Below, in pieces: positions 66 to 1,570 of a stretch of DNA of 64,000 nt (within the stretch, counting starts at the first letter, position 1; each line of letters begins with the position of its first letter). Origin of the DNA: Bradyrhizobium sp. CCGB12 (GTDB taxonomy: Bacteria > Pseudomonadota > Alphaproteobacteria > Rhizobiales > Xanthobacteraceae); the NCBI RefSeq assembly GCF_024199845.1, contig NZ_JANADO010000001.1, positions 3,162,001-3,226,000 on the forward strand. The letters run 5' to 3'. The notes under the pieces were generated by a model. It had not been told where the DNA came from and did no database searches. It saw only the letters and a program-made list of their open reading frames with translations. Position numbers and translations under genes: made by a program.

Positions 66-91
66 GTCGTCCTGGCGAAAGCCAGGACCCA
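66..91 (+). repeat. REP-like palindrome, left copy
   Basis: Positions 69-88 form a perfect 8-bp stem closed by a GAAA tetraloop (GTCCTGGC-GAAA-GCCAGGAC). The 26-nt unit 66-91 recurs as an exact reverse complement at 1545-1570. I recognise this as a dispersed intergenic palindrome typical of Bradyrhizobium. It lies directly after a gene end. Confidence 0.75.
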
Positions 92-171
92 TTGCCCCAG
101 CGAGGAATTTGGCGACGACTCGTCGTTCGGTACACCTACCGCGCTCGATCGAAAGATCACGCGGTGATGGG

Positions 172-184
172 GTGGACGGCCCCC
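172..184 (+). repeat. Left subterminal inverted repeat of the IS1111-type element
   Basis: GTGGACGGCCCCC at 172-184 is the exact reverse complement of 1529-1541. It lies 57 nt upstream of the GTG start of the transposase. Confidence 0.75.
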
Positions 185-240
185 TACGGCATCAGTGTGC
201 CAGAATGAGGTTGTCACACACTCATTCACAGGAGCCGTCC

Positions 241-1278
241 GTGGGTCAGATTATCCGCATTGGAATGGATACGTCGAAGTATATTTTCCAGCTCCATGGC
301 GTTGACGCCTCCGAGCAGGTCGTGTTGCGCAAGCGGCTCAGCCGCAAGGCGATGCTGGAGTTTTTTGCCAAGCTGCCGCCGACGGTGGTCGTGATCGAGG
401 CTTGCGGGGCCGCCCACCACTTGGCACGCGAGCTCGGCCGGCTGGGACACACGTTCAAGCTGATTGCGCCGCAGCTGGTGAAGCCCTACGTGCCGCGCAA
501 CAAGAACGACGGGCGCGATGCGGAAGGGCTGTGCGAGGCGGCGAGCCGGCCGCGGATGCGGTATGTGGCGGTGAAGACGGCGGAGCAGCAGGCTGCACTG
601 ATGCTGCTGGGCGTCCGCGAGCAATTGGTCGCGCGTCGCACGCAACTCTCCAACACGATCCGCGGGCATGCGGCGGAGTTCGGTCTGATCGCGGCCAAGG
701 GGCTGGACAAGCTCGCCGCGTTCCTGGCGGCGATCAGCCAGGACGAAGGCGTGCCGGCGCTGGCCCGCGAGCTGTTTGCGATGCTGGCTCGCCAATATGA
801 CCAGGTGCAGGTCGAGCTGAAGGCGGTCGAGGCCAAGCTGCTGGCCTGGCACCGGGCCGATGCCACGAGCCGGCGATTGGCGCAGATCCCGGGGATCGGT
901 CCGGTCACGGCGGCGGCGCTGGTGATGAAGGCGCCCGACCCACACGCCTTCCGCTCGGGGCGGCTGTTCGCAGCCTGGCTCGGCCTGACGCCCAAGGACC
1001 ATTCCACTGCGGGAAAGACCCGGCTCGGCAAGATCACCCGGGCAGGTGATGAGAGGCTACGTCAGCTGCTGGTGGTCGGGGCAACCTCGGTGGTGAAGAT
1101 GGCCAAAACCCGAGATCGCGGGCCTCGCTGGCTGATCGAGCTGTTGAAGCGCAAGACGCCGAAGCTGGCCGCAGTGGCGCTGGCCAACAAGATGGCTCGC
1201 ATCGCCTGGAAACTGATGACCACGGGGGAAAGCTACGATAGCGCGCGGATCGATGCCCAAATGGCCGTTGCCGCGTAG
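241..1278 (+). CDS. IS110/IS1111-family transposase (DEDD recombinase)
   Basis: This 345-residue protein is a DEDD-type transposase of the IS110 family. The N-terminal RuvC-like domain shows the acidic set D10 (GMDTSK), E53 (VVIEACG), D90 and D93 (NKNDGRDAEGL). The C-terminal Transposase_20 domain runs from about residue 213 (AQIPGIGPVTAAAL) through FRSGRLFAAWLGLTP, where S239 is the likely catalytic serine, to about residue 281. I chose the GTG at 241 because AGGAG lies at 230-234, six bases upstream; an in-frame ATG at 205 would add 12 residues. Family members insert circular intermediates guided by an element-encoded bridge RNA. No frameshift is seen, so the enzyme looks intact. Confidence 0.93.
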   Translation: MGQIIRIGMDTSKYIFQLHGVDASEQVVLRKRLSRKAMLEFFAKLPPTVVVIEACGAAHHLARELGRLGHTFKLIAPQLVKPYVPRNKNDGRDAEGLCEAASRPRMRYVAVKTAEQQAALMLLGVREQLVARRTQLSNTIRGHAAEFGLIAAKGLDKLAAFLAAISQDEGVPALARELFAMLARQYDQVQVELKAVEAKLLAWHRADATSRRLAQIPGIGPVTAAALVMKAPDPHAFRSGRLFAAWLGLTPKDHSTAGKTRLGKITRAGDERLRQLLVVGATSVVKMAKTRDRGPRWLIELLKRKTPKLAAVALANKMARIAWKLMTTGESYDSARIDAQMAVAA

Positions 1279-1528
1279 TTGAGAGATTCGGCCGGCCGGC
1301 GACTTAGTCCGCCGACCGAACCGGAGCTGCAGGAGCAGAGGAGATGGTGTGATCGGTCGACCCGAGACGCGAGCAAATCCGTGGGACCCATTGGCCGAGC
1401 AAGGTCGCAGCGGTGATTGGAACTCGTGTTGCGGAAACCATCTTGGCCAGCGGCTACAAAGCTGCATCAACAGGCCGCACATATGGATGCAAGCGATCCG
1501 ATCAAACCTCACAAAGCTCTTGTGCCAC
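1279..1528 (+). ncRNA. Candidate bridge RNA region in the IS right end
   Basis: About 250 nt between the transposase stop and the right inverted repeat carries no plausible gene. In the IS1111 subgroup the bridge RNA is expected from the right end. The stretch contains GGACCCATTG at 1384-1393, identical to REP positions 85-94, a natural candidate for a target guide. The RNA boundaries and fold are inferred, and I did not model the structure. Confidence 0.4.
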
Positions 1529-1541
1529 GGGGGCCGTCCAC
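1529..1541 (-). repeat. Right subterminal inverted repeat of the IS1111-type element
   Basis: GGGGGCCGTCCAC at 1529-1541 pairs exactly with 172-184. It ends only 3-4 nt before the REP homology begins at 1544. Confidence 0.75.
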
Positions 1542-1544
1542 ATA

Positions 1545-1570
1545 TGGGTCCTGGCTTTCGCCAGGACGAC
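1545..1570 (-). repeat. REP-like palindrome, right copy, abutting the IS
   Basis: This is the exact reverse complement of 66-91, with the stem-loop at 1548-1567. Its outer part is replaced by the IS end, so the REP homology starts abruptly at 1544. That points to insertion at the edge of the REP. Confidence 0.75.

Follow-up and report, generated by a model that had tools for sequence, protein, structure and literature searches.

Architecture and family placement of the element

Near the left end of the window (the whole 64,000-nucleotide stretch of DNA that was analysed), an insertion sequence with one recombinase gene stands at the edge of one member of a REP pair. The locus comprises the following features. 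Papers are cited by PMC number, and statements about them refer to the parts of each that were available.

66..92, + strand: partner REP, uninterrupted (repeat comparison)
161..164, + strand: left target half-site GCGG (own copies and empty counterparts)
165..1544, + strand: whole IS1111-group element (ends placed by repeats, copy comparison and the 7+3 extension rule of PMC11187229)
172..184, + strand: left subterminal inverted repeat GTGGACGGCCCCC (repeat comparison)
241..1278, + strand: DEDD / Transposase_20 recombinase gene, 345 aa, GTG start, no internal stops (profile matches, relatives)
1520..1525, + strand: -35-like TTGTGC, 17 bp from a TATGAT box present only when 1544 is joined to 165, as in a circle
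1529..1541, + strand: right subterminal inverted repeat (repeat comparison)
1544..1570, + strand: interrupted REP hairpin, inverse of 66-92 (repeat comparison)
1545..1551, + strand: right target half-site TGGGTCC (own copies and empty counterparts)

The REPs at 66-92 and 1544-1570 are perfect inverse copies over 27 nt, which bears out a preliminary description of this DNA in which the right flank opened with the same REP inverted. The perfect 13-bp subterminal repeats that it placed at 172-184 and 1529-1541 are 100% complementary (13/13), and its long non-coding right end is also as described, since past the transposase stop codon at 1278 we found no further transposase frame, just unrelated mechanical open reading frames. 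This non-coding stretch measures 263 bp from the stop codon to the end of the right repeat, versus 70 bp from the left repeat to the start codon. The description put the element at 169..1570, but its limits are better drawn at 165-1544 because positions 1545-1570 belong to the target REP. So delimited, the element has extensions of 7 bp on the left and 3 bp on the right outside its subterminal repeats, and its net gain relative to the empty site is 1378 bp.

The recombinase matches PF01548, PF02371 and NF033542 (the last at 323.4 bits). Its DEDD/RuvC N-terminal and Transposase_20 C-terminal domains make up 345 aa, within the 330-350 aa reported for IS1111-group transposases (PMC11187229). Its motif GLTPKDHSTAG is the TA form of GL-P----S(T)G, a form termed occasional in PMC11187229 and the most frequent one among the relatives found here. 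The 13/13-bp subterminal repeats (usually 11-13 bp and perfect or nearly so in the IS1111 group) and the long non-coding stretch downstream of the transposase gene likewise agree with this group. The left-end bridge RNA and short subterminal repeats of the IS110 group (IS621-like) do not fit, with a left space of 70 bp and repeats of 13 bp. Judged by its sequence, the element is an intact and apparently recently active IS1111-group (IS110 family) insertion sequence.

Target guides and a predicted RNA in the right end

The right end contains a predicted bridge RNA, or seekRNA, with the following parts.

1340..1501, + strand: predicted bridge/seekRNA region (alignment A1; modelled extent, RNA ends not fixed)
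1351-1355 with 1494-1498, + strand: outer stem (alignment A1)
1367-1372 with 1424-1429, + strand: target-loop stem (alignment A1)
1382..1390, + strand: target guide 1, predicted to pair with the top strand of the right half-site TGGGTCC; T1391 is one possible extra pair
1392..1407, + strand: hairpin separating both target guides, TGGCC...GGTCG (consensus fold, covariation)
1408..1415, + strand: target guide 2 (CAGCGG followed by core TG), in the sense of the left half-site GCGG; GCGG-UG is 1410-1415
1438..1442, + strand: putative donor guide CCATC, which can pair with left-end GATGG and is invariant in 30 alignment rows
1478..1485, + strand: putative donor guide CACATATG, equal to the right end CACATA plus core TG; ACATATG is invariant in 30 rows

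The 10-nt GGACCCATTG that had drawn attention to this region is indeed shared by 85-94 and 1384-1393, embedded in an 18-of-21 direct repeat; about 0.02 such matches would be expected by chance for an end and a REP of these sizes (260 x 35 x 2 / 4^10, calculated by hand). Only its GGACCCA(T) part, at 1384-1391, holds as guide 1, which addresses the right half-site. The remaining bases are surplus because the following base varies in relatives and the conserved GG hairpin arm comes next, and the relevant REP end is 1545-1551 rather than the untouched REP at 66-92. The earlier reading of an RNA-guided element programmed for REPs stands with this amendment and one addition: it had recognised one of two guides and overlooked guide 2 at 1408-1415. 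The order of the guides, with the top-strand match first, agrees with that reported for IS1111 seekRNAs (PMC11187229).

Guides in relatives were read from motif anchors, guide 1 as the nine bases between CCG and GG that form the reverse complement of the right flank, and guide 2 as the bases past the hairpin that equal the left flank, followed by TG. This parsed 88 of 111 elements and left 23 unparsed. Across 73 unique element-site combinations, guide 1 agreed with the right flank of its own site in 7.48 of 8 positions (4.75 when shuffled) and guide 2 with the left flank in 4.34 of 6 (1.93 when shuffled), and 0 of 20,000 shuffles scored as high for either guide. With one row per guide pair (n = 41), the values were 7.51 versus 4.30 for guide 1 and 4.37 versus 1.75 for guide 2. 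The 25 non-REP pairs gave 7.24 versus 3.73 and 4.72 versus 1.85. Among the 16 REP-targeting pairs, guide 2 scored 3.81 versus 2.18 (0/20,000), and guide 1, which is almost constant there, scored 7.94 versus 7.48 (10/20,000). These shuffles take no account of relatedness, although guides do change together with very different targets, and the test retains two elements (L064, L072) that are one base out of frame and score 2/8 for guide 1. The match between guide 2 and the left flank is short, at 4/6 in the own copies and 2 to 6 over the tested rows. These results demonstrate that the guide occurs in related copies, as the preliminary description required, and that where the targets of relatives differ the guide differs accordingly; thus two guide segments match both target strands and covary with the target, as in a seekRNA or bridge RNA.

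Guide 2 also differs between near neighbours: the right end in genome G121 is 95% identical and reads AGGGT where the own element reads AGCGG, and the left flank of that copy runs past the contig end, which leaves its target unread. Two relatives (L191, L201) sit at the REP variants TGGGGTCC and TGGAGTCC, with an extra or changed base, and have the guide GGACCCC in both cases. In six Rhizobium-group relatives (L082, L083, L084, L087, L089, L099), guides and flanks resemble the tRNA T-arm, for example GGATTCGAACC.

The fold across related copies, proposed earlier as a check, revealed a conserved structure with compensatory changes in the right end. The consensus fold from alignment A1 (30 of 38 excised RNAs) comprises, besides the outer stem, a donor loop and a target loop; the target loop is closed by its own stem, and within it the two guides flank a small hairpin. 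Paired cells make up 96.0%, both-sided changes occur in 13 of 32 pairs, and cells with such changes number 62, compared with 16.0 in shuffled alignments and 2 to 11 for slid structures. The consensus was derived from the same alignment on which it was tested, and the test therefore favours it. Target and donor loops of the seekRNA or bridge RNA kind are thus evident by covariation and not from a single fold, as the window's RNA by itself folds no better than its shuffles (z -0.58). Searches against Rfam returned two chance-level matches far under the gathering scores, neither in the right end of the element, and the RNA was therefore judged by its own alignment.

Target sites, the missing TA and TA-less REPs

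Six copies of the element, 100% identical over 1382 bp, are present in the own genome, which comprises 9.43 Mb in two contigs. All six lie at the same REP edge, GG-T...ATGGGTCC, with ...GG-TGATGGG-GTGGAC on the left, GTCCAC-ATA-TGGGTCC on the right and the REP next; copies at unrelated sequences, which were to count against the preliminary reading, did not appear. The left half-site of these occupied sites is GCGG in three, GGGG in two and GTGG in one, and the 16 unoccupied SNGGTATGGGTCC sites of the genome have GCGG (13) or GGGG (3). The REP edge SN7ATGGGTCCYGG has 116 matches in the genome, IS junctions counted in, and the bases ahead of ATGGG vary in the 100 tails among the matches listed. 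On contig G000:C1, 10 of these 100 tails lie below about 4.1 Mb of the chromosome and the others between 4.1 and 8.2 Mb. In the wider clade, the right flank is TGGGTCC at 35 of 37 unique related Bradyrhizobium element-sites (transposase identity at least 66%, both ends placeable) and TGGGCCC or TGGGGTC at one each. Ends were placed by motif anchors, which succeeded in 109 loci and failed in 47, many of them fragments or contig-end pieces.

Comparison with empty sites revealed a discrepancy at the centre of the target. The guides spell GCGG-TG-GGTCC, with TG at the meeting point of nearly all parsed guides in the family, whereas empty sites in relatives read GCGG-TA-TGGGTCC, and TA is therefore absent once the element is inserted. 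Counterparts of the window's site in relatives read GATCACGCGGT-ATGGGTCC or nearly so, with GT-ATG in the best alignment at 19 of 21 loci; the other two read GTGGTTATGGGTCC and GTGGTGATGGGGTCC, and a second alignment of each gives GGT-ATGGG. CGG was joined to TGGG in 0 of these 21 counterparts. For a second copy (L002), TA precedes TGGG in 4/4 counterparts. For a third (L005), two of five counterpart loci align well and have the same TA-bearing form, one has GGTTATGGG, one is unalignable at the junction and one has no spanning match. The comparison thus covers three of the six copies; counterparts of the others (L001, L003, L004) had no alignment over the junction. This two-base offset between guides and target can be seen directly and departs from the reported IS1111 rule. 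G.T wobble could seat the UG of guide 2 on TA. An AT core (GCGGTG-AT-GGGTCC), suggested by GGTGATGGGTCC, which stands unoccupied three times in the genome (twice as a REP tail), was excluded by the empty counterparts in relatives.

Because the occupied site differs from the empty one by a net gain of 1378 bp, the element is either 1378 bp long with 6+2 extensions or 1380 bp long with 7+3 extensions and loss of TA. Joining 1544 to 165 creates TATGAT 17 bp from TTGTGC, and across 109 elements (not deduplicated) this junction box is TATGAT in 49 and TATGTT in 41, together 90. The 7+3 extensions fit this junction promoter, and 2 bp of target are then lost, against the IS1111-group rule of no loss or gain; published extensions are 7+3, occasionally 6+3, and insertion adds no bases (PMC11187229). 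Two more distant relatives (62%; L192, L193) at the same REP edge keep the left TA (...TA-TGTTGGG), and their insertion therefore appears to lose nothing. Sister IS1111 elements with 55-58% identity (L197, L198, L209, L214, L215, L217, L218) have guides spelling GCTCTCG-TG-AACCGAGC; a search for this target with 0-3 extra bases permitted was successful in 50 of the 117 genus genomes, with 0 extra bases in all 86 among the matches listed. Some genomes have two such intact sites that are oriented alike and separated by about 700-780 bp.

We found that the natural edge without TA, CGCGGTGGGTCCYGG, has 38 matches in 25 of 257 genus genomes, compared with 2,350 for the natural form, CGCGGTATGGGTCCYGG, which occurs in 217 of the 257 (natural-form counts transcribed by hand). 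All 38 TA-less matches were read, and a rule based on a hairpin or REP body assigns 25 of them to REPs; one further match (L302) looks REP-like and fails the rule. TA-less REP sites number 11/76 in the three genomes in which a GCGG guide was read (own, G055, G072) versus 14/2,299 in the other 254, an enrichment of about 24 times (Fisher p 5e-11, with sites taken as independent, perhaps wrongly). The signal comes from the own genome (4/14) and G072 (5/11), and G055 alone is not significant (2/51). Among genomes whose close copy has a different or unread guide, the figure is 3/330, where a close copy means a right-end match at E up to 1e-20 with two candidates scored per genome, so that some copies may be missed. 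Nine genomes without a close copy have 11 TA-less sites (two each in G096 and G244; one each in G030, G033, G052, G078, G105, G148 and G155), for which earlier copies could account. In genome G203, one TA-less site (L289) lies in a REP pair whose partner REP bears an element end.

At L310 (G203:C113) and near 146240 on G072:C56, a TA-less REP shares its REP pair with an element end or lies next to one. Two unoccupied REP tails (L251, L252) read GGGGTGATGGGTCC, identical to the left junction plus REP, and may be natural variants or have arisen by deletion between ATGGG repeats.

Taken together, guide-flank covariation, the conserved fold and identical copies at one kind of target make REP-edge targeting by RNA near certain, and the element is almost certainly an RNA-guided IS1111-group element whose guide pair is aimed at the REP edge. 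The recombinase would bind the right-end RNA; at the right half-site guide 1 would pair with the top strand, at the left half-site guide 2 would pair with the bottom strand, and the donor loop would pair with the joined ends of a circle, at whose junction the promoter-like box pair would arise. The circle would then insert at the edge of the REP hairpin, with a TG-like core as the insertion point. That the recombinase protein recognises the REP without RNA, the right-end match being a REP remnant, is very improbable: close relatives do lie nearly all at the same REP edge, as protein recognition would allow, but guides vary along with flanks among relatives, and in the relative L191, whose REP has an extra G (TGGGGTCC), the guide contains one additional C.

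The TA-less REP sites are plausibly excision scars, with the 11 such sites in nine genomes lacking a detected close copy counting against this reading. We tentatively suggest, as a possibility we hold somewhat short of belief, that the guides address half-sites two bases apart, that insertion drops the TA, and that excision rejoins the donor flanks at the TG core, so that the REP then inherited lacks TA and equals the guide-encoded sequence. It is rather unlikely, though a serious alternative, that extensions are 6+2 with an 8-nt circle junction, that insertion occurs between T and A with zero bases lost, and that TA-less sites are ordinary mutations. The net insertion of exactly 1378 bp with one T shared and the 11 TA-less REPs in nine genomes without a detected close copy are in keeping with 6+2 extensions, but TATGAT at 17-bp spacing requires a 10-nt junction, the box is TATGAT or TATGTT in 90/109 elements, the RNA contains CACATATG at 1478-1485, the published extensions differ (PMC11187229), and TA-less sites are about 24 times commoner in the three GCGG-guide genomes. 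Still less probable is that TA-less sites, as a gap-free match to both guides, are the true preferred target and the sole sites entered. In its favour, the guides spell exactly GCGG-TG-GGTCC, and four such REP sites stand unoccupied in the own genome. Against it, relatives have TA at the counterparts of three occupied sites and the TA-less rate in the other 254 genomes is about 0.6%, which together would require three prior losses at occupied sites; in addition, among the clade's 47 left flanks (not deduplicated), 0 end in TA. If TA-less sites are scars, donor-site rejoining does occur, at least rarely.

Relation to known RNA-guided and REP-targeting elements

With 41 distinct guide pairs, the family amounts to a natural collection of guides and their targets, and a guide rule that is relaxed or tolerates a gap would inform the understanding of guide reading. 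A rejoined target here would be recognisable through its missing TA, which offers a marked system for a question left open by the seekRNA authors, namely circle formation without an equivalent rejoined target; that of ISEc11 was undetected and listed among their unresolved points (PMC11187229). A mobilome study, in the part available, counted 5,248 circle junctions for IS4321 and 403 for IS5075, with 0 deletion junctions for either. If the scars are real, genomes contain a countable record of RNA-guided excision and of donor-site rejoining, the latter undetected in experiments with other IS1111 elements. The available portions of the literature on Bradyrhizobium REPs, IS110-family REP targeting and IS1111/IS110 excision gave no account of this element or of such scars.

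RNA-guided REP targeting is an already known kind of behaviour, and REP targeting by IS110-family elements has been reported since 2006 (PMC1525189). As with ISPpu9, ISPpu10, ISPa11 and ISRm19 (IS110-family elements of Pseudomonas and Sinorhizobium), every counted copy here lies in a host REP, but host and REP are different, and the 2006 analysis counted REP association and predates guides; ISRm22, an IS4-family element that also targets REPs, is unrelated. Bradyrhizobium REPs of the CGTC type (PMC3733652) and Br-REP1/2 have also been described. By motif, the target hairpin belongs with the CGTC-tagged REPs, as CGTC stands at its end and copies are scattered across the genus; unlike here, CGTC repeats are not associated with transposase genes according to the available part of PMC3733652.

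Like the IS621 bridge RNA (PMC11208160), the predicted RNA has separate target and donor loops and a dinucleotide core, whereas IS621, of the IS110 group, has a left-end RNA, short subterminal repeats and a CT core. The IS110-group element ISEc21 has a reversed guide order (PMC11187229). The closest likeness is to the seekRNA elements ISEc11, ISKpn4 and ISPa11 (PMC11187229), which share a DEDD recombinase of about 340 aa, long subterminal repeats, a downstream non-coding region and two guides with the top-strand match first, and ISEc11 also has a promoter at its circle junction. Unlike in those elements, the guides here meet gap-free and the natural target has TA between its half-sites.
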